Shown here: piece after piece, positions 2,831 through 55,020 of the stretch | Position numbering within the stretch: position 1 is the first letter of the stretch | Layout of the letters: each line of letters begins with the position of its first letter | Assembly (NCBI RefSeq): GCF_035083965.1 | Contig: NC_089724.1 | Span: 2,735,001-2,799,000 of the forward strand | Origin: Branchiostoma lanceolatum | Lineage: Eukaryota > Chordata > Leptocardii > Amphioxiformes > Branchiostomatidae | DNA length: 64,000 bases | Direction of reading: 5' to 3' | Notes under the pieces: generated by a model | The model's database searches: none | What the model was told of the DNA's origin: nothing | Seen by the model: the letters and a program-made list of their open reading frames with translations, nothing else | Translations under genes and position numbers: made by a program

Positions 2831-3267
2831 TTGTTTTCTGTTCGACAGCTCCCGTACCCGGCATGCACAGCGCCACCGACGCATGCGGCGGGAAATTCAA
2901 ATTTTCGAGTTAACATTTTTTTCGTTGATCCAGGGACTGACCGCATCAAATTAGGGGTCTGCACAGACCTAAAGAATGGACCGAAATCTTGTTTTCTGGG
3001 GCGGAATCTACACCCTTAGCACTGTCTCGTCAATATGAAATGTAGCCTACATTTTCCAAGAAAAGGGCTTCTACAAGTCTTGAATAGGTTAAAATACTAT
3101 ATAGGCTAAAGATAGACCCTAGGTGCAGACATCTATTTGGCCTGTGTCCTACTATTCACTTCCTCTTTGGCAGGGGAGAAAATGACAATTTTTTCATCAG
3201 GGTAGTCCAATTTTGAATGGCGTTTGCTCGATGATGTACTGAGATTAATCTCACTTGAAGACACATA

Positions 3268-3513
3268 AGCCCCTGTCTCACTGCACCCGCGACACGTTGG
3301 TGACCTCTCTGCGATTTGACACCGCGCTCAATGAATCTCATCGACAAAAACGAATCATTTTACGCTTTGTGTGTTTTGTTGTCTTTTTAGTCATACTTGT
3401 ACGTTTTGCCCGATATTCACATTATAAAGTCAAGGGTAACACATCCAGTTTAGGACACAGCGCGGTCGCCAGCGGGTCGCGGGTCCAGTGAGAGGGGGGG
3501 GGGGGGGGGGGGC
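3268..3513. mobile_element. MITE with AGCCCC-TCTCACTG inverted ends (copy 1)
   Basis: Left end AGCCCCTGTCTCACTGCACC and right end GGGTCCAGTGAGAGGGG..CT are inverted repeats of about 40 bp, including GCGACACGTTGGTGACC against GGTCGCCAGCGGGTCGC. There is no ORF of interest. The other copies are 4422-4659 and, interrupted by a retroposon, 29804-30520. Confidence 0.75.
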
Positions 3514-4321: not shown

Positions 4322-4421
4322 TGGCAGGGGAGAAAATGACAATTTTTTCATCAGGGTAGTCCAATTTTGAATGGCGTTTGCTCGATGATGTACTGAGATT
4401 AATCTCACTTGAAGACACATA

Positions 4422-4659
4422 AGCCCCTGTCTCACTGCACCCGCGACACGTTGGTGACCTCTCTGCGATTTGACACCGCGCTCAATGAATCTCATCGACA
4501 AAAACGAATCATTTTACGCTTTGTGTATTTTGTTGTCTTTTTAGTCATACTTGTACGTTTTGCCCGATATTCACATTATAAAGTCAAGGGTAACACATCC
4601 AGTTTAGGACACAGCGCGGTCGCCAGCGGGTCGCGGGTCCAGTGAGAGGGGGGGGGGGC
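4422..4659. mobile_element. MITE with AGCCCC-TCTCACTG inverted ends (copy 2)
   Basis: Near-identical to 3268-3513, within the second unit of the tandem duplication. It differs mainly by a shorter G-run at the right end. Confidence 0.75.
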
Positions 4660-4813: not shown

Positions 4814-5743
4814 TTTTTTTTTTTTATTCTGTCATATTTATCCAGGGTGGCCCTGCTCAGTGGTTCCCACTGCTTTTCAGAGGGGCCCTGCTTACATAAA
4901 ATAACTGATAATACAAACAGAAATATCAACATATAGAAATAATAACAATAAAGATCATAATGAAAACAATGAAGGTAATGATAACAGTAGTAAATAAATG
5001 ATAACAATCATAGTACAAATCATAATACAAATCATAATACAAGTCAAATCATAATTAAATCCGTTCCTTGTCATTGAGGGGTCAGAGGTCATGCCAGTCC
5101 TTGCCAAGTGTTACATTTGTTTTTAAAGACAGACATGGATGAAGAAGTCTTCATAGATTGTGGCAGGCGGTTCCACATAATCGCACCTCTATATGAAAAC
5201 TTGCGCTTTCCACATTCAAGGCGTACTAGCGGCAGTTTCAAGGATAGACTCAGACTGTGCCTGGTTGGATAATTATGATATTCAGAAGTTCTATGAAAGC
5301 TATTGATGTACTCTGGAAGTTCGTTGTTAACTGCCTTGTACATTGATTGTAGTAGGTGCAAGTTTCTCCTAGACACTAAGGTTTTCAAGCCTAAGGCAGA
5401 GAACTCCTCATCCCCAACATGATGCGTATATGGCAAACCTAGAATAAGTCTCACTGCGCGGTTCTGGAGCTTTTGCAGCTTGTCGGACAGACACTTTCCA
5501 CAGTTGCCCCATATTACATCGCAATAGTCCATTTTTGGTAAAACCATACAGTTGAACAACATCATAAGAGTGTGTTGTGGCAGACATGGGACAAGACGCC
5601 GTAGGACTCCCAGTCTCGACGAGACAGCATTACATAATTTGTTTGTGTGTACATGCCATGATAAGTAAGGGTCAAGTCAAACGCCCAGGTACTTGTAGCT
5701 AGAAACTACTTCCAAACTGGTGCCAGAAAGGGTAGTTGACAAT
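4814..5743 (-). mobile_element. 5'-truncated non-LTR retrotransposon (CR1/Jockey-like)
   Basis: Inserted on the minus strand into the TTAA MITE at its GGTGATC site. GTGAT occurs at both junctions, which is compatible with a short target-site duplication. The 3' end has a T-run on the plus strand (a poly-A or A-rich tail on the element strand). The body encodes the carboxy-terminal part of a reverse transcriptase (next entry). Being nested, it is younger than the tandem duplication or arose in one copy after it. Confidence 0.8.
5089..5565 (-). pseudogene. Reverse transcriptase C-terminal fragment
   Basis: The 158-codon frame contains VLPKMDYCDVIWGN, KLQKLQNRAVRLILG and a late IMWNRLPQSMK block. 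These are hallmarks of the thumb and C-terminal region of CR1/Jockey-type LINE reverse transcriptases. Upstream, to about 5743, the same frame gives YKYLGV and LDPYLSWHVHT (the usual block before the thumb), interrupted by an in-frame stop. No catalytic FADD-type motif or endonuclease is present, so this is a dead 5'-truncated copy. Confidence 0.85.
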
Positions 5744-7855: not shown

Positions 7856-10800
7856 CTACATCAGCCACACGGCCAAAGCGAGGAGCAGGGTGAAGAAGGC
7901 GGATCCCCGCGCCACGGTAGCGTCGCTGCCCGGCCCCTGTCGGTCCCTGGCCCGCTTGCCCTGGACCGGCCTCTCGATGTTCTCCTCGATGGTGATGTCC
8001 ACCTCTTCACGACGGCTGCTCTGCGATTCTGGGTCGGACGATTCAGTGGGGGGTTGGAAGAGAAAGAAAAACATTCATTAGTAAGGACGAAGGTAAATGA
8101 AGTCCTAGCCTGTGTTTACACTAGCTCTCGCTGGCGGAGGTTGATGACCCTCTTCCCTAGGGGGCGGTAAACGTCGGGTAGGCCCCAAGGAGCGCGATTT
8201 AGTCAGGCTTAAGGTAGCCCTATACCAGTCCTCAGTTTGAGGCCGCAGGGGCAGTGGGTTGTTATCCACAGTGTGTGTCTAGGGCACGGTATTGGAAGGA
8301 GGAGCCCAACCATCGCCTTCCACGGCCTTTCAATTACCGCCCAACCGAATTCGGGTACCCATTCTTACACACTTTCCTACTCTTCTGACGTGTCGAGTCT
8401 TGGGGTCTACTCTATGGCTTCCATGAACTTCTATGCACTTGAGATTAGTCGTTGAAGCATGTTCAACTGCAGAAGTGTTAACATTCAAGTCTTGAAAATG
8501 CCAAAGACAGGTGTTATGTCTGGTTTCATCTTCATGCAATTCATTCACGAGAAACTCGCCTATCGACATCCCAACACAGTGCGGCCCACGAACCAGTCAA
8601 GTCATCCTCCTCCTGGCACAGAAGAACATTCATCCCTACTACAGTTAAGTTATGGAACTGCCATCTGCTGGACATTGTGGACACCAGGGACTTACAGAAC
8701 TTCAAAAGACTCTCCCACCTCAGCGCCACTCGTCGGCATCCTTTATAGTGAACGTTATTCAGCAATGCTGCTAAGCTGAGGTCCTGGTAATGAATAAATA
8801 AATAAATAAATAAATAAAGATAGAAAATGATAAATCCGACACTCACCTTCTCTCATGGCCTCCTCTCGCTCCTCCATCTCCTCCTCAAACGCCGCCTCCT
8901 CCTCCTCGAGGTACTCCTCATCTTCCTCCAAAGCCTCCTCACCTTCTTCCTCAGCCTCCTCCAAGGCCTCTTCCTCCTCCTCGAGCATGTCGTCAACGTC
9001 ATAGTCTCCCTCCTGGCCGAAGTCGTACGGTGCCGGGGTGGTGTACTGGTCATCCCACAGCCAGTCGTCGGTGACAGCGTCCTCTTGAGAGTAGTCCTCT
9101 TCTTCTTGAGAGTAGTCCTCTTCTTCTTGAGAGTAGTCCTCTTCTTCTTCTTCCATCTGATCTTCGAAATCCTCTTCTCTTGCCTCCTCTTCCTCCTCCT
9201 CCAAGATGCCGTAGTCGTCCTCTTCCTCTGGATAGCCCTCTTCCTGCAATCAGAAAAGAGTAATCAGCAATCTATATACAGAACCATTTAACAGTCGACC
9301 TGAACAAGCCCGCACCTACTTGCTACTATGGAGTTCACCTTTTTTGTCTTCTTAAAGCAACAGTAAAATTTCTAAGTTTAACCCAAACTTACATTGTAAA
9401 TGCCAAACGTTTCAAAACTGACTGAATAACCACTATACATTTATGCAGTTATTATAACTCGAAAATTGACCTTAGTATGTGTTTATCATGTATGCCTGTC
9501 TGTATTGGACTACCGAACCCAAATGCTGTTATTCAGTTGTTATTGTTATTGTTATTGAAAAGAAATCAAACCCAGTAGCAACTGTTTAGATTAGAAGTAG
9601 CTCTAGTTGACGACTTTAATTTCACTTTGTGTTTATTTCATTACTGTGTACTTATTATTATCATTATCTCATTTCAAAACTTTATTGATTGTATCTCACC
9701 GGAATAATTCCGGAGGAACGATGATGATGATGATTTCAATGTATTCTTGCAATTAACCTCCGGGCATGAATTTGCAATAAATTTATTATTATTATTGTAT
9801 TTGTCTTGATCAGTTGTAATTACTATTTTACGGGGATTGTATGATATTAGCTACTCGCCAGAGTGTATCACCTCTGTGTCCTGTACATTCTTTTGTTGAT
9901 TAAAAGAAGAAGAAACTCTTACGTCTGAGACTTCCTCTTCATCATCATCAGCTTCGTCCATGATCCGGTCGAAGATGGGGTCGTCTTCCACGTTCTGGAA
10001 GGTGCTTTCCGGGCACAGGTCGGACTGGACGTACGCAGTCGTCATGCCCATGAACCCGACGTGGTACGCCTCGATGTTCGCTGTAAGAAGCACGCGCAGA
10101 ACGATCAGAATTAGAACAAAGGAGCAAGTATGGGCAAACTAAATAGGATCGAAAAGAGAAGGGGTCCTTCCCGGTGCGAGTGGTTCAAAACCTACAGTCC
10201 TATGCTTGCACATGGGTTCGCCCTTAGTAATAGCCTCCGGCTAGTTGGGCAACTCTGGCATGTACATGCTGAACGAATCAATGAATGAATAGGATGCACC
10301 AAGGCTAATAAATGCAAGCGGTAGACATACATGCAGACAATAATCATAGGTCCCACATAAACCACATGAAATATCATGTCTATGTTTTGAGTAGGTCTTG
10401 GCCCCAAATATAAATCCATACTAGTTCCGAATTCATTCATTCCTTTGAATGCCAAGATCTGACAAGCCCATGACAGCGAGGGATTATGTAATGCTACGGT
10501 CGCAACTGCGCCGGTGCCCGTCGGGGGTGTAGTCCCCGGCGGCCGGGCCCCGAAGCCACAGATTTGTCCCGGTGGACTGTCGGGTACCGAGGGTTACCTC
10601 CCGGTGTTCGAACGGTTAGCTAACGTCGTCTATTTGTTACCGGGTCCATGGTCGATTTCAAGTCTCAGTTAAAATGATTTAGGGTCCCGGCCGGGCCCAA
10701 AATTAGCCCGGCAGCCGTAAGGTGTCCCACGGGGCCACATAAGCCCGAAACTAAAACAAATAGCCCGTCAACTACCCGGAGGGGTCCCTTTTCCAATTTT

Positions 10801-13800
10801 GACCTATTCATTTTATTCATCTATTTATTCATTTAGATTTACCGCATTTGTGGAAGATTTTGACATAACAGGTTAACTATCACCTTTTCAAGATGTCAAC
10901 CCAGACCAGACTGTAAGGTTTTTGGACCATCGCACACCGGGGCATACCCCTACTCTATTTCGAAAAATGTGGTAGGTTCTTTTACGTGCTCCCCCAAAAA
11001 TACGGGACCTCCATTTAACGTCCTATCCGAGGGACGTCCCTAACCCTAGATGAGTTAGGTACTCATTTACACCTGAGTGAAGCGAGGAAAGTCCTTTCCC
11101 TATTAAAGGAGTCCTAAACTCCAGAAGGCGGTGTTATTTTCCACTAGATTATGTATCAATCAATACATAATCAGCCGACTTTTTACAGAATTTTGCTTGT
11201 GTTAAATTTTACAAGGTGTGTTTTTAAAACAATATGATACTCACTAAACCCCTGCAGACCCTACCAGTGTATTCCCTATGCGTAAACATACATTTTTAAA
11301 CGTGGATATTTTCGGAGTAAATGAGGGTGGTTAAGCACAATAAGAAAGCCAATTGTTGATAAGATATAAAAGAACACATAGCAAGAAGAGTTTTCTTAAC
11401 CACCCTGACATTCATAATCTAACTTTTGTCAGGCATTGTCAGGCATATTGTAAAAAACACATAGGCTGAGGGTCACCTGGGGAATTTGGTAGAATACTGA
11501 ATTCTTTGGATACGCACGGGAATAGTGAGTACTTTATCGTATACTGTAAGAAATATTCATTTCTACTTCCTAAAATTACCATCCATTGGAAAATAACTCC
11601 CCCCTCTGAACTTCAGGACTCCTTTAATGCATAGTACAGGCTGTACTCACGGGTGAGGGTGCAGTTTTTGACCGCCTCCTGCAGGCAGACCAGGTGGGCA
11701 TCCAGCGCATCACACCACCGGGTCCCTGACCCCACTGACGTCACGAACGCAGCCACACACGGGCGCAGGATCTCCATCGGGCACTCCTCCTCCTCATCTG
11801 TATATTACGAGTTGCAGAGAAGACATGAATGTCATTTACATTGGAAATCTTTGAGTGTTAATAGAAACTTTAAACTGTTTAGTAACGGAACTGTAAGAAC
11901 CTGACATCATGATAGCTAATGTTACATATATGTAGTACTGTTTGGAAAAGTATATCTTTAGCAGATTAGGATTTTATTGTTGAATCAGATAGTTTTAATA
12001 TGCTGATTGCAACACGATGGAAACTTGCAAGTATATCGATTGTAAACTACCTCACAATTCAGCCAACTAATAAGGCTGCCAGAAGGTCTGTAAAATTTGT
12101 TGTTGTTGAAATGAACCAATAAACCAGCCTACTACTACATTTCTTTCCTTCGTTCGTTCGTTCAGAACCTTGTAGTGCCTAGTGGCACATAGGGCAGAAA
12201 GTTCCCTTTTTGTTTCTGTAGCATGGTATATCTTTTGCAGGGAGGGGTTGCCAGCCCTTCCCCGCTAACGTTATCGGGTCATCTTCGCGAATACGCCCCC
12301 CCTCTTTTACGTCCCTTCCGAAACACGGTGTAGCCCCAGCCGAGATGTCCTGGCCCCATGACCTTGACCGTGGTCTCTTAGACAGACTGAAATCATTTTC
12401 GAGGGGAGATGTCTGCTTTGAATATGTTATAAGGATGAATATTGATGATTATGAAGACTCAGATGTTCAAGAAATAAGGATATGTCAAGAAGTGTTGAAC
12501 GCACGTACCTTCATCATCATCTTCACCTCTCGCTACACCTCGCTCTGCAATTTCTTCCAGCTCGTTCTCGAGTTCTCTCTCCACCTCTTCCAGCTCCTCG
12601 ACTTCCCTCTCGAGTTCCGCTTCAGCGTCCTTCAGTTCCCCCGCGGTCTCCGGATTCTGCCTCTCCTCCTCCCTCACTTCCTCCAGCTCTCTCCTGGCGT
12701 CCTCCTCTTCCTGTACCACCTGGTCCAGCTCCTCTTCCACCACCTCGCGATCGTCCATCTCATCCTCATCTTCCAGGTCGCCCATCTCATCATCATCTTC
12801 CAGGTCGTCCATCTCATCATCATCTTCATCTTCCAGGTCGTCCATCTCATCATCCTCACCATTCAGTTGGTCCATCTCATCTGCCTCCCCAGCCTCCTCT
12901 TCCCGTTGATGCTCCACATCGTCCATCTCTTGGAGCAGCTCATCTTCCGCCTCCCTTATCTCCTCCTGCTCCCTCTCCAGCTCCTCCACCTCCCGCCTGA
13001 TCTCCTCCGTCGCGTTCTCCGGAGCCTGGTCAGCCTCCTCCAGCAGCTCGTTGATCTCGTTGGTCAGCTCCTCCTCCTGCTCCTCCAAGCGGTCCATCTC
13101 GCTCCCCATCTCATCCAGTTCTCCGCCGTCATCGCCTACGTCATCGCCTTCGTCGTCCACTCCACTCAAGATGTCGTCCTCCTCTTGGACCACCTCTGAC
13201 AGTTCTTGCTCCAGTTCCTCCACCGCTTCCTCGAATTCGCGGGTGCCGTTTTCTGGAACATCTGGCAAGGCGTCCAGCATCCTCTCCAGATGCCTCTCAA
13301 GTCGTTCCCTTTCTTGTTCCAACGTCTCCAATTCATCCCGCATCGCCTGCTCGTCCATTCCCTCGTTGGGGCCCTCGCCGCCCGACATGATCGCATCCTC
13401 CTCTCTGATCAGCTCGTCCTCTTCCTCGGCGGTTTCTGTCAGTTCCTGCTCTAGTTCGTCCACGGCTTCCTGAAACTCCTCGGTGCGGTTTTCCGGTGCT
13501 CCGAGCGAGTCGTTAAACATCTGCTCGAGCTGCCTCAGTAGTCCCTCCCTCCTTTCCTCCAGGGCCTCGATCTGTTCTTCGATCCTTTGGATCTCCATTT
13601 CCTCCTCGTCATCATCCGGACCGATGTCTTCCTCTCCTCCCATCAATCCGCCCTCCTCTCTCAGTATCTCGTCCTCTTCTTGTTCCACATCGGCAAGATC
13701 CTGCATGAGCTCATCCACTGTTTCCTGGTATTCTTCGGTGCTGTTTTCTGGCACTTCGGCCGAGGCGTTCAACAGCTGTTCGAGCTGCATTGCCAGTTCT

Positions 13801-16800
13801 TCCCGCGTTTGCTCGAGCCTTGCCAGCTCTTCCTGTAGCATCTGTTCCTCTGCATTCTCTTCTTGGCCATCATCGGGCGCGATTTCGTCCAATTCCTCCG
13901 GTTCCATTTGTCCGTCCGCTCCCTCCTCGATGTCCTCACCTCCAGCCGTGATCGCATCCTCTTCCCTCCTGAGCTCGTCCTCCTCCACTGCTATTTCTGT
14001 CAGTTCCTGTTCCAATACCTGTTCCACTTCCTCCACGGTGCGATTTTCCGGCAGTTCGACAGAGCCGTTCCGCACCAGCGCGAGTTGCCTCTGTAGCTCC
14101 TCCCATCTTTCCTCCAGCGCAGCCAGCTGTTCTTCGATCATTTGAATCTCCGCTGCCTTCTCGTCCTGAATTTCGTCATCTTCCTCCTCCATTTCTTCCT
14201 CGCCTCTCATCTCTTCCTCCTCCTCCCTTCTCATCTCCTCCTCTTCCTCTTCTTCCTCCTCCTCCTCTCGCTGTTCTTCCATCATCTCTCCGAGCGACTC
14301 GATCAGTTCCTTTGCTTCCCTCTCTTCAGACGATGCTGAGGAAAAGGAAAAAAAGATTCTCTTGTTATCACCATCCTCACCTTTTTTTTAAATCTAAAAG
14401 ACAGCACTGTATTACGAATAATGACTTTGCACTTCCGAAAGCTATGTTGCATTTCCTTAACAAGTAGAGCATATTGAAATAACTTCGGTTTGATTTGACT
14501 GAACCACACTGCGTTGCCTCCATACATTGCTGTATGCTTGGGCACTGAATACAAAGTCTTTGCCTTTAACGACAGCAGAAATACTTCTTTGCCAAATCGT
14601 CAAAGAACGCAGGCATAAACTAGCCTCCTTCGCAGACTTCCTACAGCGGCGGCGTATATTTTTTGGGAAGGGGGGTGACGCTACTTCTTACACGGGCCAA
14701 GGTTCTCTAATGCCGGCAAAGGAGTTTTGCTGCCGAGGGATTTATGTCACCGAGTCGTCGTCCCTCGGCGACATAACTCCCTCGGCAGCAAAACTCCCTC
14801 GCCGGCATTACAGAACCTTGGCCCGTGTAAGAGGTCGCGTCACCCCCCTCCCCCAAATATATACGCCGCCGTTCTAGGAAGTCTGCGAAGGAGGCTAGGC
14901 ATAAACTACATTCGAAGCCGATGCTGACGACGATGCTATTGCTGCGATGGCTGCAGACTGCAGTTCGCGTAAGAAACGCATGAGGACTGCTTCGCAGCCG
15001 ACTGTTGATGATCATGAGAAGCCGGTAGTACAATGATAGATCCTAGGGACATCCAAAAACGTCTTCCCTACGCCACTAAGTGGCCAAGGGTACTAGTAAG
15101 CGACTTAGACGCGTAGTTACAACTCGGAGCTTTATCAACATACAACCGATGGTGGAGTCAAAGATGGAGACGACTGAAGTATGATGTATGATGTCATCAT
15201 TAACAAAACCAACTCTATGGCGCTAGTGGAATTGGGGTGTAACTAACTAACCGACTAACTAACTAACTAACTAACTAGCTACCAACCTTCTTCGTTCAGC
15301 TGTTGCACGAACTCGGCTGAGCAGATGCCGAGCGACTCGTAGAACAGCACGATCTCCATGAGCGCCGTCTCGTACTCCCGCACGGCGTCCACGTCGCAGT
15401 TCAGCGACTCGTTCATTGCGGTGAGGACCCTCTCGCTGATGCAGTTCGCGTGGATCTGTGGGGCAGGGATTAGATTGGATTAGACAACATTGATACAGTG
15501 GTGAAACAAATGATAATACATCGAGTATCACTTTAGAATTAGCATCATTTTTTTTTTCTTCAGCCTTACAATGATATGTCGTTCTTGGCAATGCTCTGTG
15601 TTATCACATAGTGTTATCACGCGTGCGTGTGTGTGTATGTGTGTGCGTGCGTGTGTGTGTTTGTCTGTCTGTCTGTCATCACGATAACTCAGGAATGCCT
15701 GCGTGGACTGTCTGATATTTGGTATGTGGGTAGGTCGTGCTGTATCTATGGTATGGTGTGATGATTAGCCATGTGATAGTATGCTATATAGTGTGACATG
15801 GTGTGGTGTGGTTGGTGGAATAGGGTAGGTATTGGCATATATGCGGTTCCAAAACGTAGAGTCGGTATTGCCCTGAGGAAGGTGACAGACGGTCACCGAT
15901 ACGTCGGCTGTTGTTTGTATTTGTATTTATTGACAATGAAGACGAGTCATTACACTGGGTCAGCCTAGGCAGCTCTCGCTGGTAACGACTGACCCACAAA
16001 ATAAAGACGAACATATCCTGGTTGTGAATAAAGAACCTTATCATCCAAACAAACAAACAAACAAACAAACAAACAAACAAACAAACAAACGAACCCGGAA
16101 GGCCTCGCAGATGGAGGACTCGTCCGTCCGGTTGATATGGTCCATGAGCTCGTTCCCGCAGCGCAGCAGGATCTCGTGATCACACCTTATATGGTCAAGA
16201 GCCGTGGCGTCATCGTCGTCCTCCTCATCGGCTTCCTTGGGGCCGCACATGCCTGCAGACGTCATGGAAGATGAGTATCAGGTTTCTGTTATGCTAATCA
16301 TGCACCTCCCGAATCATGCGTATCGTCTAGTGTGCTTTATACTTTTAGTAACTTTTGATAAAGCCGCTTTTTTTCCGATCCCATCGTACCATTTCAAAAT
16401 GGAATTCGTCAATGAATATTTCGGATCAATGATTTCCCTCCCATAACCTAGTCTCTACCAGACTAACTATCCGGCTAGATGGAGAATATTTGCCAGGGTT
16501 TCAATTGCTACGCGGGCGAAATGTGATCTTCACCGTGGACTGACTCTACTGGCTTATCATTCCTTTTTCTCTCGGATTATACGATCCTTACGCCCTTAAG
16601 AGGGCCTTATAGAGGCCACCCCTATCAGAGGTAGGGAAAGGAAAGTCATCTCGAACCAGTTTAGCTCAAATGAACGCAATGCACAGATGAGCTAATCTTC
16701 CACTGGTCGCGACAGAGGAGACAGACACTATGTACAATATTTACAGGTTCATTGTACCGGGGAAATTCCCTTGGCTCTTTTTGACAAGAACGATGAACAG

Positions 16801-17932
16801 CAGACCACGGCTTAACGTCCCGTCCTAAGGACTGCGATCTTTAACGGCAGCGTGCATGTCGGTGAGCGACACAGCCGGGATCGAACCCGGGGCTTCTAGT
16901 TCCAGAGGCAAGGTCGCTAACCACAGTGGACTACGCACGCTACAAGGGAACTGTAAGTAAGGCCACACCGATTTAATTTCTTGGTTAACGGATTTTTATT
17001 TAAAATAAATAAAAAATTGAAAATATTTGAAAAGGCCAGCCTTCTGTTTTCATGGATTTTTTTTCTAAAATTCTTTTTAAAAATAAAAATAAATAAAAAT
17101 CCGTTAACCAAGAAATTAAATTGGTGTGGCCTAAGTGCACATAGTTACTCACGTGGTGACAGGACGTACGGAGAATGAAGCAGCTCGAAGTACGACAGCT
17201 GACCGTCTCCTACAAGAAATACAGGAAATATGCAAGTTATTACATTACCAACTATCTAGTACTTAATTTTACTTTCATAATAGCTTTGATACGGAAGAAG
17301 GCTTTGCCCTGAGAAGCACGACAAGTGAGAACATAATTGATGACAAACTTTTTGCCCACCTATGACTGCAGCCCTACTGTTGTTTCAAACGCGAACTTAA
17401 AACCACCACGGACACGCAATTTTCTCCCTACCGCGAAATCAAATCCCCGCGAAACTAAATGCAGTTACAGTATTTCTCACCGTTGACATCGGAGTTCTAT
17501 GTGTTATGTCGAAGGGTGGTTATACTGGCTATACAGATACAGATACAGAAACTGGTGTGTTACGCCGAATGGCGGTTATACTTGCTATATATAAAAATAC
17601 AGATACAGAATCCGCGAATCGACTTATTTCTCACCGTCGACGTCGGAGTTTTGAAACATCTCCCGCAGTGCCTCCTTGTTCTTCATCTGGTCGAAGTCCT
17701 TGCTGAACCTGTCGAACTTGTCGTACATCGCCATCACGCTGTCAGGCACGACGGCAAGCAGGGATTTCCTGGGGGGGGGGGGGGGGGGGCAGCGAAAAGG
17801 GGTCAGACAAACAAGCAAGCAAACAAACCAACTAACTAACTAACAAACAAACAAAGCCAACACGCTGTCAGGCACGACGGCGAGCAGGGCTTTCCTGGGG
17901 GGAACAGGGGAGGTGGTGAGACAAACAAGAAA

Positions 17933-17963
<31 letters not shown>

Positions 17964-20881
17964 AACAAACAAGTCCTCCACTCTTTTCGGCACAACCGCT
18001 GGTACTGTGGTAGCGCTTTCCTGGGGGAAGAGCGAATATGGCAGAGACAAACAAGCAAGCAAACAAACAATAGAAAAGCAAACAAAAACAGAAGGTTACC
18101 ACGCGACCCCATCCGTCCTAAAATATCCGATGTCCAAGACATGAAATTGGTCAAAAAGTATTCCAGTAAGTTAGAACTTAGAATGACAGAAAATAACAAG
18201 AGTCTGAGGACCCAAAATCTCCATGAAATTTGTTTTTTATTTTATTTATGTTGTGTTAGGTTTGTGTATGTTATTTGTTGTTGGGTTGTTATGTTATGTT
18301 TTATCTGCTTCAGGGTGGTTGTGTTTATATTTGTTTTATGTTGTCTGTTACGCCTCAGTGCATTGGTTTCTCCTTCTCTTTTGGCTCTCATGTGTATCTC
18401 TGACACCTGGAGACATCCCGACCTTGCCTACGAAGTTGTGTAAATTATAAACAGGGACAGGGACAGCGGTTGATAGAACACAACTTTACAGGTGAATAAA
18501 AGACAGGGGTACAATAGATAAGCAGGAAAGGTTACGGGTGACCAGATCATGTCAAAGTGCTACGTAGTTACCTATAAACTGGTAGCATTGTACGTTAAAT
18601 ATATTGTGGTCCACAGTACCATTGCCAAACCATTGAGAAAATAAAGCCAGACCACAACTGGTACATGGTATGAGCAAGAAACAGCCTGTTAACAGGTCAA
18701 AGTGAATTTACACATAATCAAATGTGTGATGTGTCCTGGTTACTTCACATACCTTATGCTTTGGATCCCCATCATATATCCTTTGATCCACAGAAACTGA
18801 TCTTGACCACTTCTTTGCTATTTTCCCATATTATTCAACTGGGGTCCTCAAACATACAGACAGGCTGGAATGAGTTGCCTTACATTAAAACCATGTAAAA
18901 CTGTTCCTTTCACTACCTGCTGTCAAGCTTCTAGTCTGGTCAAATCAGTCCCTACAGACTGTTAAGCGCCAACAGCTGTTAACAACCAACAGTGGCTAAA
19001 TTGATTGATGGGCTTGGCAAGCTAAAGCCAACAGCTGTTGACCATTGACCCACTTACGCGGATATAGGATACCCGATATAGGATAGGCCAACACAGCAAA
19101 TATAGATTTCCCCATTACTTAGGCAAATTAAGTCCAATTTGCATAATTTGCACTTCATTGTATACAACCCTCTCTAAGCTACCTGCCAAGTAAATAACAT
19201 GAAAATCTGTCGCTCCTTTCTTCAGTTATTCTCCTTTGAAAATAGTTACAAACACGCCATTGCAGTTCCAGTGACACATACCAGGGGGCCCAAAATCGAC
19301 CTTGACCTTTCTCCTCCCAGCACCTACCCACATACCAAATATCATTTCAATCCATCCACACGTTCTTCAGTTATGCTGATTTTAAGCTTCCGGTGACACA
19401 TACATACAAACACGGTGACACAAACATACACACACGCGCACACACACACAAACACAATAACTTCGCATGATTTGAACTTCAGTGTGTACATCTCCATCCA
19501 ACCTACCAACGTACCAAATAACATGAAAATCTGTTGTTCCTCTCTTCAGTTAAACCCCTTTAGAACATTTTTACAAATAGGCCATTGCAGTTCCAGGGAC
19601 ACAAACCAGGGGGCCCAAAATCGACCTTGACCATTCTCCTCCCAGCGCATACCCACATACCAAATATCACTACAATCCATCTACACGTTCTACAGTTATG
19701 CTGACTTTAAGCATACGACGACACCCATGCAAACGATTTACCTCCTTACTTATGCAAATTCGGTCTCATCTGCATAGTTTGCACTTAAGTGTGTACAACT
19801 TGGTCTAACCTACCTGTGTACCAAAGAACATGACGATCTGTCCATCCACTCTTCAGTTCTTCTACATTTAAGATTTTATCAAATACGCCATTGCAGTTCC
19901 AGTCACACATGCTAGGAGGCCCAAAATCGACCTTGACCTTCCTCCACCTAACACCCACCCACATACCAAAAATCATTTCAATCCATGTACAGGTTCTACA
20001 GTTATGGTGACTTTAAGCGACCGGTGACACAAACATACACACAAACACCAAACGCAAGCAAAACAGTACTCCATGAAAAAGCCTTTTTTCATGGAGATAA
20101 CAACATGGGATCCTAACCGATAGGTGGGACAGAAATAGAATAGCTAAGCTGGAGACAGAGGTCTTAGACTTTAACGGCACCCAGAGCATTTTATGAGGCT
20201 TGAAAACTGGAAATATTCTAGTTGCTGCAATCTTATGAAATTGACATTTAAGGCCACTGTTTACCACATTTGCGTGGAGATTTCTTATCAAAAGTGTTCA
20301 AAAACGCTAAACAAATAAGCTACATGGTGATCTTTTAGTTTAATCGCCTAGTGTAAATAGACCGATACCATAGCCCCTCCCACCTCCGTCAAAACGTAGA
20401 AATGCAAAATCGAAACATCAAAATGCAAATATTTGACGGACATGCAGTCACTCTCTCATTGGTCGAACCGCTAATTGTGGTGGACAGTCAGTCTATTAGG
20501 GCTTGGATTTTCTATCAGTTCTCACCACACAACGACATCGTATCTTTGCTCCTTGAATGTCGATATGCAATGGTATAGTGTTATTGAAACTCACTCTGTG
20601 TAGGAATAACTAGAAATTGGAGTTCTTTTATTCAAGTTTCAAGTCTCATAAAATGCTCTGGATGCCTTTAACCTTAGACCACAATACACCATACTCGCTT
20701 ACTTTGTGGTTGCGTCCTGAACTTGCTGGGGCGGCTCCGTTACTGGATGAGTTTCCATGGCGCTCGCGGGCGCTGTGGTGGCGTTATGACTCTGCATCGG
20801 TGCCTCCGTTGGCAGCAGCGCAGCGCCGTCTACCGACATCAGCACGAGGGACAGGAAACACGCCACGAGAAACACACGCAT
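7856..20881 (-). CDS. Putative GPI-anchored acidic hairpin-repeat protein with EF-hand and two six-cysteine domains
   Basis: I do not recognise this gene. Ten coding exons (minus): 20881-20703, 17768-17635, 17209-17153, 16252-16095, 15455-15287, 14335-12509, 11797-11651, 10080-9923, 9243-8847 and 8028-7856. All introns are GT-AG, phases match, and the sum is 3399 nt, or 1132 residues. Seen: a signal peptide at residues 1-20; a Thr/Pro-rich linker; an EF-hand loop at 102-113 (DVDGDGQLSYFE), complete only after splicing; six-cysteine domain 1 (C147, C155, C172, C181, C196, C221); acidic hairpin repeats 233-841; six-cysteine domain 2 (C847, C855, C870, C879, C887, C913); an acidic tail with three DYSQEEE-like units (possible tyrosine sulfation); and a hydrophobic end (SAFFTLLLALAVWLM) after a small-residue GPGSDA stretch, typical of GPI signals. 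The ATG follows an acceptor (TCCACAG|ATG), so the 5' UTR is spliced. Inferred role: a calcium-binding, heavily glycosylated cell-surface spacer. Automated pipelines might call it trichohyalin-like because of composition. Confidence 0.8.
8110..8430 (-). mobile_element. Decayed SINE-like repeat in intron 9
   Basis: Shares blocks with the SINE at 29470-29785: GGGCAGTG.GTTGTTA, AGGGCACGGTA, CTTCCACGGCCTTT and CCGAA.TCGGGTACCCATT. It lies inside the last intron of the GPI-type gene and has no coding role. Confidence 0.55.
10485..10800. repeat. GC-rich unclassified repeat in intron 7
   Basis: A sharply GC-rich island (CGGCGGCCGGGCCCC, CCCGGCCGGGCCC) inside an otherwise AT-rich intron between the second cysteine-domain exons. 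Many CCCGG/CCGGG blocks allow self-pairing. It looks like a non-autonomous repeat and no ORF is supported. Confidence 0.4.
10915..11110 (-). mobile_element. SINE-like fragment
   Basis: Contains GGTTCTTTTACGTGCT, GGGACCTCCATTTAACGTC, TATCCGAGGGACGTC and ACACCTGAGTGAAGCGAGG, in the same order as the fuller copy at 22975-23370. Antisense copy in intron 7 of the GPI-type gene. Confidence 0.65.
12509..14335 (-). CDS. Giant exon 6 encoding glycosylated acidic hairpin repeats
   Basis: One 1827-nt exon, phases 1 to 1, codes for residues 233-841. After an almost pure Glu/Arg/Met tract, five ~80-100 residue units follow at 14150-13848, 13847-13599, 13598-13359, 13358-13107 and 13106-12861. A DEMDDLED-type minirepeat (12860-12741) and a decayed sixth unit (12740-12528) come next. 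Each good unit is helix (xxxLEExxEELxxQLE), a short turn with PEN(R/S/G/A)T, then a second helix (EEL.Q.L.E...EEDE). The PENxT asparagines are residues 330, 430, 515, 595 and 673. Three units add an NxS sequon just before (322, 422, 507). Unit six reads NPETAGE, so the sequon is gone. Inference: antiparallel coiled-coil hairpins with N-glycans at each turn. The high glutamate content is real coding bias, since the opposite-strand long ORFs are only its shadow. Confidence 0.85.
14611..14906. mobile_element. Long fold-back MITE in intron 5
   Basis: Inverted arms start GCCTCCTTCGCAGACTTCCT and end with its complement, pairing through CGGCGGCGTATAT, GGGGGGTGACG, ACACGGGCCAAGGTTCT and CGAGGGA near the centre (about 14760). 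AGGCATAAACTA occurs directly at both borders (14611 and 14897), which looks like a target-site duplication. Confidence 0.8.
15873..15905 (+). repeat. Hammerhead-like repeat motif (variant)
   Basis: CTGAGGA, then a perfect GGTGAC/GTCACC stem, then GATACGTC. It resembles the CTGANGA-stem-GAAACGTC signature of the repeats at 30591, 30753, 39056, 49137 and 50849, with one change in the GAAA block. It lies in intron 4 of the GPI-type gene. Catalytic activity is not implied. Confidence 0.45.
15910..16094 (-). mobile_element. Retroposon tail abutting the exon-4 donor
   Basis: The intron after exon 4 begins CCGG|GTTCGTTTGTTTG, so the 5' splice site lies in a (GTTT)n tract of about ten units. This continues into ~130 nt resembling a LINE 3' end. 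The same arrangement opens the extra introns of dermatopontin genes A and B. Confidence 0.55.
16795..16945 (-). mobile_element. tRNA-derived SINE, antisense
   Basis: On the minus strand, CCCCGGGTTCGATCCC is a clear pol III B box. An A-box-like AGCGACC lies just upstream, next to a GTAGTCCACTGTGG start. It sits in the intron between exons 3 and 4. I do not call it a functional tRNA because no cloverleaf acceptor stem is evident. Confidence 0.6.
16958..17134. mobile_element. Fold-back MITE, TAAGGCCACACC family (copy 1)
   Basis: Arms starting TAAGGCCACACCGATTTAAT are mirrored at the right end (ATTAAATTGGTGTGGCCTAA). The arms are about 60 bp and include TTGGTTAACGGATTTTTATT. Its right end is only 19 bp from the GPI-gene EF-hand exon (17153-17209), so it sits right against the intron 3 donor. 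Confidence 0.85.
17853..18032 (-). pseudogene. Two decayed copies of the exon-2 acceptor junction
   Basis: Upstream of real exon 2 (17635-17768) are two partial copies of its 5' end including the CCCCCAG acceptor, at about 17853-17898 and 17990-18022. Copy one encodes KALLAVVPDSV against KSLLAVVPDSV in the real exon. Copy two is frameshifted but keeps AVVPKRV. They are separated by (CAAA)n and (GACA)n tracts. Each offers a decoy 3' splice site, but neither copy has a downstream donor. Confidence 0.75.
19140..20035. repeat. Three tandem ~300-bp units in intron 1
   Basis: Units begin near 19140, 19440 and 19755. Each contains GCCATTGCAGTTCCAG, GGCCCAAAATCGACCTTGACC, CACATACCAAA.ATCA and TTATGCTGATTTTAAGC. 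Short ACAC-rich stretches lie between them. It is noncoding and lies in the long first coding intron of the GPI-type gene. Confidence 0.75.
20171..20671. mobile_element. TTAA-flanked MITE, TTAAAGGCA family (intact copy)
   Basis: A 501-bp element bounded by TTAA. The left end TTAACGGCACCCAGAGCATT and right end AATGCTCTGGATGCCTTTAA form an inverted repeat of about 30 bp that includes TTTTATGAG. It is the best-preserved copy (others 3514-4006 and 4660-6102). It ends only ~30 bp from the donor of the signal-peptide exon. Confidence 0.85.
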
Positions 20882-25740: not shown

Positions 25741-26059
25741 TACTCTCCAAGCAGAGGTCACGAGGGCTCTGGTTGGTTTTTGATAGTCTCTACCAGACTA
25801 ACCGTGCCGGCTATACGAAGTACTTTTGCCAGGGGACTTTGGCCATGGAGGGTTTCATTCGCAGTTGTAAATTTGACCCTCTCTCCGTAGCCGACTCCCT
25901 TCATACAATAGACTCTATTTGGCCAATTTCTACTATTTTCCCAGCGACCCGCGGAGGCTGCTAGAGCCTAGGTTTTAAAGTGTTCTTAGGCGTTTTTGTC
26001 GCCGGAAACGCCTGAAAACAAGACAAAAAACAACCAGAGCCTAACCTCTGCTTGGAGTA
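25741..26059. mobile_element. Fold-back MITE, CTCCAAGCAGAG family (copy 3)
   Basis: Begins TACTCTCCAAGCAGAGGTCA and ends TAACCTCTGCTTGGAGTA, with GGGCTCTGGTTGGTTTTTG mirrored by CAACCAGAGCC. A foreign GC-rich insert (CCAGACTAACCGTGCCGGCT) lies inside. The flank GGGCGTCATGGCGGCCCTCC recurs next to copy 4 at 26329, so the MITE and its flank are duplicated locally. Confidence 0.75.
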
Positions 26060-26118
26060 CACATATCCTGTAGCAAGGACTTGAACAAGAACAGTAGGAA
26101 CAATCCCATATACAGACC

Positions 26119-26269
26119 TAGTCTCCAAGCAGACCTACGGGTTGGCAAAGACCGTATCCAACAGGCAGAAGGAGTTTTTATAGCCAACCCAAGTCTTGGG
26201 TTGGCTATAAAAACTCCTTCTGCCTGTTGGATACGGTCTTTGCCAACCCGTAGGTCTGCTTGGAGACTA
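26119..26269. repeat. Perfect 151-bp palindrome
   Basis: Two 75-bp arms are exact reverse complements around a single base at 26194 (CCCAAG-T-CTTGGG). Arms start TAGTCTCCAAGCAGACCTAC. A diverged relative lies at 61280-61410, so it is a snap-back DNA element and the copy here is very young or maintained by gene conversion. It could extrude as a cruciform. Confidence 0.95.
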
Positions 26270-26349
26270 ATACAGACCCACATCGCAAGGCAAAATACAA
26301 CTAAGACGCATTGTAATAACAGTGTCTCGGGCGTCATGGCGGCCCTCCA

Positions 26350-26537
26350 TACTCTTCAAGCAGAGGATGGGCTCTGCAAGGATTTTGACGTGTTCTTCAG
26401 CGTTTTTGTTTTATTTTATTTTAGCGTTTTTGTCGGGCTTTCTAGGGCTGGCAACATAAAGAAAACGGTACAGAATAGACAGACCGACAAAAACACGACA
26501 AAAAAACCGCAAGAGTCCAACCTCTGCCTGGAGAGTA
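26350..26537. mobile_element. Fold-back MITE, CTCCAAGCAGAG family (copy 4)
   Basis: Begins ACTCTTCAAGCAGAGGATG and ends CCAACCTCTGCCTGGAGAGT. The interior GTTTTTGTCGGGCTTTCTAG pairs with the GACCGACAAAAAC side. Noncoding. Confidence 0.75.
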
Positions 26538-26774
26538 ACCCATCTAGCCTATACCAGACTGACTACGCTGACTGATAGGGAGAATGATTTGCCGGGGGTG
26601 GCGGGGTGTGGAGCAGAGGTTGACTGCCAAACGTGCAGCAGAGGGAGGGGCAATGTAACCTTACCGCGGACGGACTCTCCTGGCCAAGTATTCACTTTTC
26701 GCCGAATTCTACGATCCGTACCCCCGTAGGAAGGCCTGATGGAGGCTAGGGGCCCTCTCTGCGGCCTGTATTGG

Positions 26775-29270: not shown

Positions 29271-32771
<3,501 letters not shown>

Positions 32772-36790: not shown

Positions 36791-36897
36791 AATGACGCGG
36801 AATTTCACACCCTACAGGACGCTACGAACGTTTAAAAGCAGCGCAAAGACACCCGTCTGGTCATTCCCAAAACACCGACGCGACAACGACGACAAAG

Positions 36898-39800
36898 ATG
36901 GCATCGGCACGAGCGTGGATCGTCACCGCGGTTCTTCTGGTCTGCCTCCTCGCCGGGCCCACGGACGGGTGGCGGAGGCGCCGCCGGCAGGCCCCTCCTC
37001 CTCGCTGCCCGCCCCCCACCACCGCGCTTTCCGGCGCGCAGACCAAGTGGGACGCCCCATTCACCGTGCAGTGCCCGCTGACTCGGGCCATCTCTCGCAT
37101 ACAGAGCGCCCACTGCAACATCGCTGAGGACCGAGTGTGGCGGTTCGAATGCAGGTTGTTTGTTTGTTTGTTTGTTTGTTCTATTTGCACAACAAGAAAA
37201 TACATAATACATAATACAATATGCACAAAACCAGTTGCAGGAGGAGGGAAAAAGCCTATATAGCTTGTACTAGGCCCTCCTCAATACTACTAAGAAATTA
37301 TCATAATCCATGATACATAGAATATAATAACGATGGATAACGATAATGAAATAAATAAATGGTGTAAGTTGTAAGATAAGATAAGAACTCAACATATGAG
37401 ACTACTACAGGGGGTTAGGGTGGCTTATGAGATTTGTTTTCAGGGCACTTTTAAAGCACGTCAGAAAAGAGGAGATTTTTTGTATATTTGTCCGACTGTT
37501 CAATATTATGATTGCCCGATTTAACCGCGCTAATAGCAGCCGCGTAGCAGGGCGACCTGAGCCCTGAGACCATTACTGCAATGGCTACTGATCGTCGCTC
37601 GTGGAGGGGACGTGTTGCGCAGCCGACCGATGATGATGATAGTCGCCGCCCGTAACCGGCCAGCCCCTAGACCGTGGGGAGGGGACATAAAACCTCCGAA
37701 CAGCTGGAATTTTTTCGTTATACAGGCTACATATCATATTCTTCTTTTAACTAACAAAAACCCAAAAAAAATTAGAAAAGGTGGGACATTACGTCTTCCA
37801 TTGCTTACAAAAGAGAAGTCAAACCCTTCACTAGCTATAGACAATTACGTTTGTACAATGTAGTTTAACCGCTTTTATACCTATTTTGTACCCTGTTCTT
37901 TTATGTATGTTATCTGCAATTAGCCTTCGGACAGGAATTTGCAATAAACTCATTATCATTATGACACATTTGTATCTTATACACGTGCAGGGTAGCTCCG
38001 GGGCTGATCTTCCTCCAGCACTACTGGAGCCCGTGGGTGAACGACTTTGACGGCAACATGGGGTACTACTGTCCCTTCTACAGCGTCGTCACCGGATTCA
38101 GCAGCGTGCACTCCAACGCGCACCAGGACCGACGATGGAGGGTGAGCATCCTCAAGTCTTCTTCATCTTAAAGGAAACCCAAGCAATATCTAATAGGGCT
38201 CTAAAATTTTGAATTTTGGAAGTCAATTTATTCAGTCATTTCTATACATGATTAGTTCAAACAACATTATCACAATGTAAAGCAGCATGCATTCCAACGC
38301 GCTCCAGGACCGCCGATGGAGGGTGAGCATACTCAAGTTTTCTTTTTCTTAAAGCCGCCAGATTTTCAGCCAAGTAGAAATCAGAACTGTTTGACCCCTG
38401 ACCTCCCTCATGAAACCCGCGAAACAGCCGGCGGCCCTATAGCTAACTCCCCTAGCGCCCGGGCTTCGAGCGCTACTACACACACGCAAAATTGTTTTCT
38501 TCTAGGGGAATACACTATCCCGGCTACAACCGGGCCCAGCACGCAAGGCATGTTTCTGTATCCCTGATAGAACCGGGACCGGCAGACTAAGAGTACATCT
38601 AATGTCTTAGGTTTCGGGCGCACTTTGGGGGCGTTTTAGGAACGCGCCAAACAGTATATTATGTGGCTAGTTGACAAAATATTCCAGTTATCCCACGAAT
38701 GTGTTCCTGTAATCTGTGGAATGTTTCACGCACGCGTAGTTACCATTCCGTAGGGGGTCCGCGTCCGTAGACTGTCAGGTCCAGGTCAATTAAACACCGG
38801 GAAGCCACTAGGATCCTCTAGTCTAGTCTCCAAGCAGTTCTTCTACACATTGTAGCTCCACTGTAATTCTTATTTTCATTCCTGACATTTTGCTCAAGTT
38901 TATTCTGTTATCATCAATTGAGATGTATAAATCATGTAATTAATATTCGTGTTTTGCTATCTACTCGTAACATTACCCCCGTGAATAGTTTCATCAGGTT
39001 GGTAAGTCACTGAATAAAAAGACTCTTTTTACACAATGAAGAGATTTATTCCACCGACGTTTCGGTGACCATCTGTCACCTTCTTCAAGACAATTCTGAC
39101 TGGTTCACATTACAATGCAGCACAGGTGTCGCTGCTTATACATAATAATGAGATGCATTCCCAAGCGCAAAGTATTTACATATGTACAATCACAGGTGAT
39201 GACATCACTATGCGGTCCCAAACGTACAGAAGTGTATCACATACAACAAACATGACCTTTACCCTTTGTTTGCAGGTGAAGTGCTCCCGGAAGCCCGGCA
39301 TGGTGGCCTACGGCTGCCGCGTCACGACCTACGTCAACGGCTGGGATGCCGTCATGAACTTCGTGGTGCCGCCGACGTACTACATCAAGGGCATCCACGG
39401 GCATCAGGACAACAAATATGGGTGAGCGGTCTCAAGTTACTACCTTCACTACAAGGTTACGTTTTAGATACTTTGTGTATTTGTGAATCTGTGGGTGGAT
39501 TCTAATTTTGATAATGGCCCCCTAGCGGATTTCTTAGGTTCTTAGGCACAAGGACAACAAATATGGGTGAGCGGTCTCAAGTTACTACCTTCGCTAGAAG
39601 GTTATGTGTTAGGTGCCGTTTGTGTCTGTCTGAAGCTGTGGGTGGATTCTAATTTTGATAATGGGCCCCCTAGCGGGTTTCATAGGTTTTGTAGTCTCCA
39701 GGACAACAAATATGGGTGAGCGGTCTTAAGTTATTACCTTCGCTAGAAGGTTATGTTTTAGTTGCCGTTTGTGTGTGTTTGTGAAGCTGTAGGTGGATGC

Positions 39801-47083: not shown

Positions 47084-48304
47084 CTACAGGTAGATTCTGC
47101 ACAGGTGGAATCCATAGCGACGATCCCTGGTAAAAACACAAAGCGGCTTTTAAACGTTTAAAAATGACTCCAGTGTACAACAAGTCTACATATAGTTTTT
47201 GTAATGTTGATGCCCCCGTGGAAGGTTTTCCTGGCCAGGCCAGAAATTTTGTCCGGACAAATACCAGTTCAGTGAACAGGGCTATAGGCTGCATATATTT
47301 TTTTCCAGTTATGCCAATTTTGTAAACGTTTGACAAAGATAGCTTCTCTTTCCATAGTTTGGATCTGTCGCCCCTACAGAATTGTCATGCTCATATTTAC
47401 TCTAGGCGACACTTTCTCAAGTGCGGCAGAGAGAAAAGTACTCTTAAACATATTGCAGAGATTGTCACTATCTCGATACCTCCATAGAAAGCTACTTACT
47501 CTTTGCCATTGTCGTGGTATCCATACATCCCTCGGATGTAGTAGCCGTAGGGAACGTAGTAGTCCATGTTGGCATCCCACCAGTTCTCATAGGGAGACGA
47601 GTAGTAGTAGGAAGTTCTCATGCCCCACTTACTGGAACACCTCACCTGTAAAATGAAGTTAAGAAGTAACAGATTTGAAAACGCCTAATGCATCGTTGAC
47701 TTTGAACTGCCCGTTCTTCTTTAGTTGATCATTTAGTGGAAAAGTAGGACAAATGCTCACTTTGTTTGTTTTCTTTCTTTCTTTCTGTCGTACCTGGGTG
47801 ACTCGAGTAACACAACAGACAATATATCTTCAGCACAGCAAAAGGCGCCGGCCAAAAAAGTGAAATTTTGTTTATATGCCATTGAAAGAGTTTACTCACC
47901 CTCCAGCGGCGATCTTCGTGGTGGTTGGAGTGCTCGCTCTTGAACCCGGTGACGACGCCGTTAAACGGACAGCCGTAGTTCATATAGTTGTCAAAGGAGT
48001 TGATCCAGGGTGACCAGTAGTGCCAGGTGAAGTAAGAGAGCCCGGGAACGGACTTGCACTCGAACCGCCACACCCGGTCCTCGGCGTGGTCGCAGTGGAC
48101 GCTCTGCACACGGGAGATGGCCTGGTTCGGCCCGGAGCACTGGAAGGTGAATGTCTGGTCCCAGCTTTTGATGGCGCCCCTCAGGGCCGTGGTGTGTGGA
48201 AGACAGCGGCGCCGGCGACGCCTCCTCCGCCAGCCGTCCGTGGGCCCGGCGAGGAGGCAGGCCAGAAAAACCGCGGTGACGATCCACGCTCGTGCCGAGG
48301 CCAT
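47084..48304 (-). CDS. Dermatopontin-like gene C
   Basis: Exons 48304-47900, 47645-47500 and 47126-47084 (TAG): 594 nt, 197 residues, with no disruption. Signal peptide MASARAWIVTAVFLACLLAG, then eight consecutive Arg and a Cys. Dermatopontin blocks: AISRVQSVHC, EDRVWRFEC, HYWSPWINSFD, HEDRRWR, ENWWDANMDYY, GMYGYHDN and EDRRYGFHLC. Introns are short (254 and 373 nt) and GT-AG, with phases 0 and 2, at positions shared with A, B and D. This is the most compact member and a good proxy for the ancestral structure. TATA box at 48357-48363 and the shared GGAATTTTCTTCC motif upstream. Expected to be a secreted extracellular-matrix protein. Confidence 0.92.
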
Positions 48305-48410
48305 CGTCGTCGTCGTGTCGGGGCTGGGACTGAGCACAGAGGTGTCATGACGCGGGCTTTATACCTTAACATCCTTTTGTTTCTATAAGGAAGAAAATTC
48401 CTTGTCGGTC
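48305..48410 (-). promoter_or_regulatory. Promoter of dermatopontin C
   Basis: On minus, in order: GGAATTTTCTTCCTTATAGA, ACAAAAGGATGTTAAGGTATAAAG, then CTCAGTCCCAGC and ACACGACGACGACG just before ATG. The same order is found for gene D (54931-55020) and, less exactly, for gene A. This suggests coordinated expression of the cluster. Confidence 0.7.
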
Positions 48411-54238: not shown

Positions 54239-54930
54239 TTTTTGCTATTGTCATGATACCCGTGGATTCCCCTCAGGAAGTACCCGAAGGTCGCAGAGTA
54301 GTCCATCGGCTTGTCCCATTCGTTCTGGTACGGCGTCAGGACGTTGTTGTACGTCACCATGCCGGCCGTCTTCGAGCACCGCACCTGTAGTAATGTTTAA
54401 TAACATTATGGGGACCGTTATAAGTTTATGTATAAGGATATACGTATACGGGACCTGAATATCAATGCTGATATAGGGAAACACAAGTGTGGAGATATCT
54501 GACGTATTTAAAAACGTATTTTTACCATCCAGCGGCGGTCCTCTTGGCTGTTGGAGTGCTTGCTCTCGAAGCCGGTGACCAGGCTGTTGAAGGGACAGGT
54601 GAAGCCCATTTGGCCGTCATAGTCGTTCACCCAAGGCGTCCAGAAGTGCTCCTGGAAGTTAGATAGCCCGGGAACGGACTTGCACTCGAACCGCCACACT
54701 CGGTCCTCGGTCGTGTCGCAGTGGACGCTCTGGATACGGGAGATGACCTGGTTCGGCCCGGGGCACTGGAATTTGAACGGCCGGTCCCAGTTGTTGATGG
54801 CGCCGGGGAGGGCCGTGTTGTAAGCCGGGCAGCGGCGGCGACGGCGGCGGCGGAACCAGCTGTCGGTGGGACCGGCGAGGAGACAGGCCAGAAGAACCGC
54901 GGTGACGATCCACGCTCGTGCCGATGCCAT
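54239..54930 (-). CDS. Dermatopontin-like gene D (last exon not found)
   Basis: Exons 54930-54526 and 54384-54239, separated by a 141-nt intron. Signal peptide MASARAWIVTAVLLACLLAG, WFRRRRRRR then Cys, and dermatopontin blocks VISRIQSVHC, EDRVWRFEC, HFWTPWVNDYDG, QEDRRWM, KTAGMVTYN, NEWDKPMDY and GIHGYHDN. Closest to gene A in exon sequence. The final small exon (DRRY...C in A, B and C) could not be found in the 3 kb downstream. The frame meets TAA directly across the donor, with AATAAA behind it. It is either a protein ~14 residues shorter that lacks the last cysteine, or a gene with a distant or lost exon. TATA box at 54983-54989. Confidence 0.85.
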
Positions 54931-54982
54931 CGTCGTCGTCGTGTCGGCGCTGAGACTGAGCACAGGAGTGTCATAGCACGGG

Positions 54983-55020
54983 TTTTATACCTTCTATAAG
55001 GAAGAAAATTCTTTCCCGGT
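54983..55020 (-). promoter_or_regulatory. Promoter of dermatopontin D
   Basis: GAATTTTCTTCCTTATAGAA followed directly by GGTATAAAA, 53 nt before the ATG. It is more compact than promoter C because the ACAAAAGGATG piece is missing. Confidence 0.65.

Follow-up and report, generated by a model that had tools for sequence, protein, structure and literature searches.

A candidate GPI-anchored polyanionic protein with an EF-hand, paired six-cysteine domains and predicted acidic hairpins in Branchiostoma lanceolatum

Introduction

A stretch of 64,000 nucleotides of Branchiostoma lanceolatum DNA (NC_089724.1, positions 2,735,001 to 2,799,000; hereafter the window) carries on its minus strand a series of coding exons rich in Glu and Asp codons. 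One question then is whether these exons belong to a single gene and, if so, what kind of protein would be made from such an order of parts and where it would act. The reading that we favour, and to which we give about an even chance, is that one gene encodes a polyanionic protein of the secretory pathway, tethered through a GPI anchor to the outside of the cell and likely serving as an extended spacer or coat.

The gene model

Spliced in silico, the ten minus-strand coding exons (20881 to 7856, 3399 nt; Table 1) yield one frame of 1132 amino acids, in which the sole stop is the terminal one, the phases agree at 9/9 junctions and GT/AG borders are present at 9/9 introns, so that the frame proposed in the first-pass annotation is reproduced exactly. 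The order of parts that it had described, namely a signal-type end, an EF-hand, cysteine domains, an acidic middle and a hydrophobic tail, is likewise borne out by splicing and hydropathy. The whole protein contains 300 Glu, 120 Asp and 12 N-X-S/T sequons, and for the mature chain (residues 20-1110) we compute a pI of 4.05 and a charge of about -342 at pH 7; the cleavage point of the signal peptide was placed by a rule which we assume to hold here.

Agreement of phase is by itself weak evidence for a join, because a reader can pick splice sites to fit. Three joins are backed beyond phase, that of exons 2 and 3 by the EF-hand loop and those of exons 4 and 5 and of exons 7 and 8 by the six-cysteine domains that they complete. 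For the join of exons 1 and 2, across an intron of 2.9 kb, phase and sense are the whole of the support, and the donors of exons 4 (GTTCGT) and 5 (GTTGGT) are non-consensus and lie at microsatellite edges; the poor exon 4 donor is nonetheless the one backed by the cysteine spacing of the first domain. Exon 9, when read past its donor (8755-8846, minus strand), runs into another hydrophobic C-terminus, derived in part from an AATA microsatellite, which is probably due to chance and possibly marks an isoform. The remote first exon, the two weak donors and this second hydrophobic end are what speaks for an alternative that we consider improbable, in which the model fuses two or more genes or transcripts, the first or the tail exon being foreign, or in which isoforms with different ends are made. 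It is opposed by the agreement of all nine phases, by the completion of the EF-hand loop and of both cysteine domains across junctions, by the acidic character that runs on over joins 5/6, 6/7, 8/9 and 9/10, and by a tblastn search of the window with the gene parts (low-complexity masked), which gave no other copy, the four hits outside the gene having E values of 0.26 to 0.82. 

Exon 6 is stop-free over 1827 nt, whereas the longest open run in 200 base shuffles was 207 codons. The stop codon is followed, 137 bases on, by a candidate poly(A) signal, ATTAAA, and upstream, near 24675 on the minus strand, a donor-like ACCTG/GTAAGA recognised by eye would suit a 5' non-coding exon. The long plus-strand frames over exon 6 (e.g. 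12222-13199) were considered as an opposite-strand gene and set aside, being read as probable shadows of GAG-rich codons.

The introns have features of their own. In intron 1, at 17820-18040 on the minus strand, the acceptor and first codons of exon 2 recur twice (at about 17895 and 18022); both copies are decayed and partial, the rest of exon 2 being absent. Large inverted repeats resembling small mobile elements occupy 14620-14898 and 16960-17132, with arms of 135 nt (91% complementary) and 43 nt (98%).

Table 1. Coordinates of the exons and acidic repeats of the predicted gene and of other genes in the window
Feature	Position	Strand	Evidence or remark
Exon 1: signal peptide (about 20825-20881), then a short mature N-terminus rich in Thr and Pro, one sequon	20703..20881	-	splicing, hydropathy
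Exon 2: helix and start of EF-hand loop (17635-17644)	17635..17768	-	splicing, Pfam EF-hand_1
Exon 3: remainder of EF-hand loop (17184-17209) and exiting helix	17153..17209	-	splicing; calmodulins are the best PDB relatives
Exon 4: acidic linker, then start of cysteine domain 1 (16184 downwards)	16095..16252	-	splicing, Cys-domain comparison
Exon 5: remainder of cysteine domain 1 (C181, C196, C221)	15287..15455	-	splicing, Cys-domain comparison
Exon 6: acidic middle, six predicted two-helix repeats	12509..14335	-	splicing, repeat alignment, heptads, dN/dS
Repeat R1, two sequons	13920..14156	-	splicing, repeat alignment
Repeat R2, two sequons	13623..13853	-	splicing, repeat alignment
Repeat R3, two sequons	13359..13598	-	splicing, repeat alignment
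Repeat R4, one sequon	13125..13346	-	splicing, repeat alignment
Repeat R5, one sequon, then Asp-rich linker	12888..13100	-	splicing, repeat alignment
Repeat R6, turn PETAG, no sequon	12519..12746	-	splicing, repeat alignment
Exon 7: C847 to C887 of cysteine domain 2	11651..11797	-	splicing, Cys-domain comparison
Exon 8: C913, completing cysteine domain 2, then acidic linker	9923..10080	-	splicing, Cys-domain comparison
Exon 9: acidic C-terminal region, nine Tyr, triple EEEDYSQ	8847..9243	-	splicing, tandem repeat, Tyr context
Exon 10: KRAR site (residues 1100-1103), GPI-type signal (about 7859-7927), stop codon	7856..8028	-	splicing, hydropathy
Dermatopontin-family exons	36796-37263 (+), 39069-39425 (+), 47729-48358 (-), 54508-54984 (-)		PF14704; 39069 piece just under cut-off
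Sulfotransfer_2 gene, three exon-like pieces	57162-59773	-	PF03567; piece 59486-59773 under curated cut-off

The EF-hand

One EF-hand loop of canonical form, DVDGDGQLSYFE (residues 102-113), is made whole when exons 2 and 3 are joined, and its twelve positions show the ligand pattern D1, D3, D5, G6, L8 and E12. The Pfam profile EF-hand_1 (PF00036) matches a 72-aa piece with an E value of 8.7e-6 and 25.4 bits, a score equal to the curated cut-off of 25.4, and a 251-aa N-terminal piece with 22.3 bits, which is under it. A search of PDB sequences with the EF piece gave 352 matches at E up to 1 (best E 2.8e-9); among the matches listed (60 of the 352) all are calmodulins or calmodulin-based constructs, aligned near their C-terminal end, in a region that we take to be EF4. 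EF-hands usually work in pairs; a second one was not found by Pfam, the pair profiles EF-hand_7 and EF-hand_8 matching below cut-off by their second half alone. This single loop is a predicted calcium-binding site.

The six-cysteine domains

Two stretches flanking the acidic middle each contain six cysteines, C147/155/172/181/196/221 in the first and C847/855/870/879/887/913 in the second. Their likeness, claimed in the first-pass annotation, is upheld as likely homology: BLASTP aligns the two with 19/86 identical residues (E 5e-4 in this single comparison), and their local alignment score of 49 was reached by 2/2000 free shuffles and by 6/2000 shuffles in which the cysteines were kept fixed. 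Furthermore, joining exon 4 to exon 5 produces the C-x8-C spacing CEAFRIHANC, matching CDALDAHLVC within exon 7, and joining exon 7 to exon 8 adds the sixth cysteine of the second domain. The two domains have thus probably diverged from a common ancestor. The introns within them fall at different positions and in different phases, one lying after the third cysteine in phase 0 and the other after the fifth in phase 1; a simple recent exon duplication is therefore unlikely, and these differences lend no support to the suggestion that the acidic middle had been inserted between two copies of one domain.

Known cysteine families were tried as relatives of these domains and rejected, the matches being at the level of chance. 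At E up to 10, Pfam gave for the first domain only Lipase_2 at 0.12, below cut-off, and no match for the second; NCBIfam gave E values of 0.13 and 0.075 for the two, far below cut-off; one search of PDB sequences returned none and another seven at E 0.23 to 0.41, while a two-row profile of the domains found one PDB match at E 1.5. In a six-frame search of the window, the pattern of the first four cysteines was found in exon 7 only. Pattern searches for relatives gave three matches in viral contigs and 51 in prokaryote genomes, none of them confirmed, as is expected for an animal gene. A cysteine domain that is present twice and has no Pfam match could define a new small extracellular fold.

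The acidic middle

Between the cysteine domains lie six diverged repeats whose length, with the limits chosen here, is 71 to 80 residues; acidic linkers separate them, and each repeat consists of two heptad segments around a turn (12 segments in all). The turn reads PEN-x-T, and hence contains a sequon, in five of the six repeats, the sixth having PETAG with no sequon, and in R1 to R3 a second sequon stands just ahead of that in the turn. Residues 293-840 contain eight sequons, against a mean of 0.6 and a maximum of 4 in 2000 shuffles. The heptad character is equally pronounced: with segment limits chosen by eye ahead of the periodicity test, the summed 3.5-residue power is 48.0, against 9.1 +/- 2.5 (maximum 19.3) in 2000 shuffles. 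Taken singly, 9/12 segments have a power reached by at most 8/1000 shuffles, and R1b, R2a and R6a are weakly periodic (reached by 37, 53 and 51 of 1000). The acidic hairpins of the first-pass annotation thus find support, in the aligned repeats and their heptad power, as far as they describe the middle as a series of two-helix units.

A stretch so rich in acidic codons might have arisen as a low-complexity or microsatellite artefact. Among R1-R4, the repeats taken into the codon-position count, differences at positions 1/2/3 number 130/129/218 (six pairs, 444 codon comparisons), against about 277/303/304 in a codon-permuted control, and dN is lower than dS in 15/15 pairs of R1-R6, dS being saturated in six of them. 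Such an excess at third positions together with dN below dS is the pattern that selection on a protein would give, most of the copies are old, and the artefact is ruled out by these two properties and by the heptad order.

How the two segments of a repeat are arranged is suggested by a profile of the repeats, which found one match at E <= 0.01 among PDB sequences, 8qae (E 0.0062, with no stretch passing alone). This entry is sc-apCC-6-SLLA, a designed single-chain antiparallel coiled coil (PMC11288890). The match mildly favours antiparallel coiled-coil hairpins; it may be owed to heptad composition alone, which other profiles with regular heptads might share. Pfam searches with the six repeats touched 85 families; among the 25 listed the best E value is 0.0023 and most are coiled-coil or helical, those listed for the first repeat all fall below cut-off, and we take these matches as coiled-coil noise. 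The two segments could also pair between molecules instead of within one. We nevertheless prefer the hairpin as the predicted fold, with the sequons as putative N-glycosylation sites.

The C-terminal region and the ends of the precursor

Exon 9 encodes nine tyrosines. Seven of these are surrounded, within +/-5, by five or more acidic residues with no basic one among them, and in six the residue at -1 is Asp or Glu, whereas none of the remaining eight tyrosines of the protein has more than four acidic neighbours within the same distance. Three of the sites make up a perfect triple EEEDYSQ, which derives from a 21-base tandem repeat with 100% match. A review on sulfated tyrosines describes acidic residues within +/-5 and a proposal that a basic residue at -1 abolishes sulfation (PMC6272617), and the contexts in the tail agree with that published rule. 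A cluster of likely tyrosine-sulfation sites near the C-terminus is predicted, with the reservation that such contexts are to be expected from the regional acidity alone. Both this cluster and the KRAR site considered below are new here, having been absent from the earlier reading.

The two most hydrophobic non-overlapping 13-mers of the protein begin at residue 3 (2.98) and residue 1120 (2.52), the next reaching 1.71, so that the hydrophobic ends lie where a signal peptide and a GPI-type tail are expected, with none as strong between them. The C-terminus, judged by the usual rule for GPI signals, runs from SDA (1110-1112) through TVARGS to 14 hydrophobic residues at the very end, and S1110 is presumably the omega site. 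GPI anchoring is predicted on this basis. The sequence KRAR (1100-1103) lies seven residues ahead of this likely site, and cleavage there could lead to shedding of the ectodomain.

The same KRAR is the starting point of the main rival to a surface protein, a shed or secreted form in which a furin-type cut would remove the tail and free a soluble acidic matrix protein, a calcium- or mineral-binding polyanion. The position of the site directly ahead of the tail, the very high Glu/Asp content and the EF-hand would all suit it. Furin, however, prefers Arg at P4, which KRAR lacks, and the SDA, the short spacer and the 14-residue hydrophobic end with nothing beyond would suit the usual pattern of a GPI signal; we hold the secreted form to be unlikely, while taking it seriously. 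The acidity, the EF-hand and the heptads would serve equally well in a lumenal or granule calcium buffer, comparable in use to calsequestrin or the granins and not a surface coat. This we regard as very unlikely, since the predicted protein has no KDEL-type ER-retention end and has a hydrophobic GPI-type end instead, and the N-glycan sites are located at turns. An anchored surface protein accordingly remains the reading that we carry forward.

A predicted cell-surface polyanion

From the computed gene model, repeats, heptads, sequons, EF-hand loop and cysteine-domain similarity we infer a protein that would, in order, comprise a signal peptide, a calcium-type EF-hand, the first six-cysteine domain, six hairpins, the second six-cysteine domain, an acidic tail and a GPI signal. 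The hairpins would be stiff short rods joined by flexible acidic linkers and carrying sugars at their tips, five of the six having a Pro-Glu-Asn-x-Thr turn able to bear an N-glycan. A net charge of about -342 would keep the chain extended and would loosely bind cations such as calcium along it, calcium being bound also at the EF-hand, whereas specific contacts could be provided by the two cysteine (disulfide) domains and by the near-membrane sulfotyrosine cluster. As a coat, the protein, if made as modelled, would be a polyanion charged by its own side chains and sulfotyrosines and not by long sugar chains, with N-glycans at the hairpin tips. Cell coats are not usually constructed in this manner.

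The protein is possibly restricted to its lineage. More speculatively, and as a suggestion that we advance only tentatively, it might be the first known representative of a family of GPI-anchored polyelectrolytes confined to one lineage, whose tandem glycan-tipped antiparallel hairpins, flanked by a new six-cysteine domain and a sulfotyrosine cluster, would stand in for a proteoglycan with protein alone. Acidic surface glycoproteins that are specific to a lineage occur commonly in animals.

Other features of the window

Elsewhere in the window, exons of the dermatopontin family (PF14704) belong to several genes on both strands and form a local cluster, and a sulfotransferase-type gene lies further along (Table 1); both kinds of neighbour suit animal DNA. 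Two near-identical 80-codon plus-strand frames (3249-3491 and 4403-4645), 1.15 kb apart, look as if derived from a recent direct duplication. At 26041-26575 overlapping frames on opposite strands translate into almost identical peptides (SLQADLRVGKDRIQQAEG...), and the stretch is therefore a near-palindromic repeat. Two minus-strand stretches (5089-5676 and 29874-30350) resemble by eye the ends of non-LTR retrotransposon proteins, with no Pfam match at E up to 0.01. Rfam gave nothing at the gathering threshold in the window.

Comparison with known systems

The first-pass annotation could name no family in which the parts follow in this order, and comparison of pieces of the protein with Pfam-A, NCBIfam and PDB sequences bears this out as far as it reaches. 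Pfam was searched piecewise, with five pieces of the protein and the six repeats cut free of the linkers between them; NCBIfam with the two cysteine domains; and PDB sequences with each cysteine domain, the profile built from both, the EF piece and the profile of the repeats, all lying ahead of the C-terminal tail. In a literature search we found no paper combining the parts of the protein and, among the papers listed, none evidently on the present gene.

Three families were considered as candidate relatives: the SPARC group, which has an EF-hand and an acidic part; the GDNF-receptor proteins GFR-alpha and GAS1, which have GPI-type ends and helical cysteine domains; and DUF19, with its six-cysteine domains. 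At E up to 10, in searches where the HMMER filters may lose weak matches, the SPARC/testican extracellular calcium-binding profile and DUF19 (T20D4.11-like) were absent from the Pfam matches, as was the GDNF profile from those of either cysteine domain.

Likenesses to other systems are confined to single parts. With the EF-hand family (PF00036; calmodulin in the PDB) the protein shares the canonical 12-residue loop, which here forms a single stretch within a predicted secreted protein that also has cysteine domains. Mucins of the PSGL-1 type are surface glycoproteins with sulfotyrosines in an acidic context, and the present protein would resemble them in having acidic-context tyrosines on a predicted surface glycoprotein; in contrast to their mucin stalk, it has a GPI-type end and helical repeats. 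Finally, the repeats have in common with sc-apCC-6-SLLA (8qae) heptad helices with short turns, as the weak profile match suggests, whereas the designed protein is artificial and gathers six helices in one helical barrel, unlike the present protein (PMC11288890).
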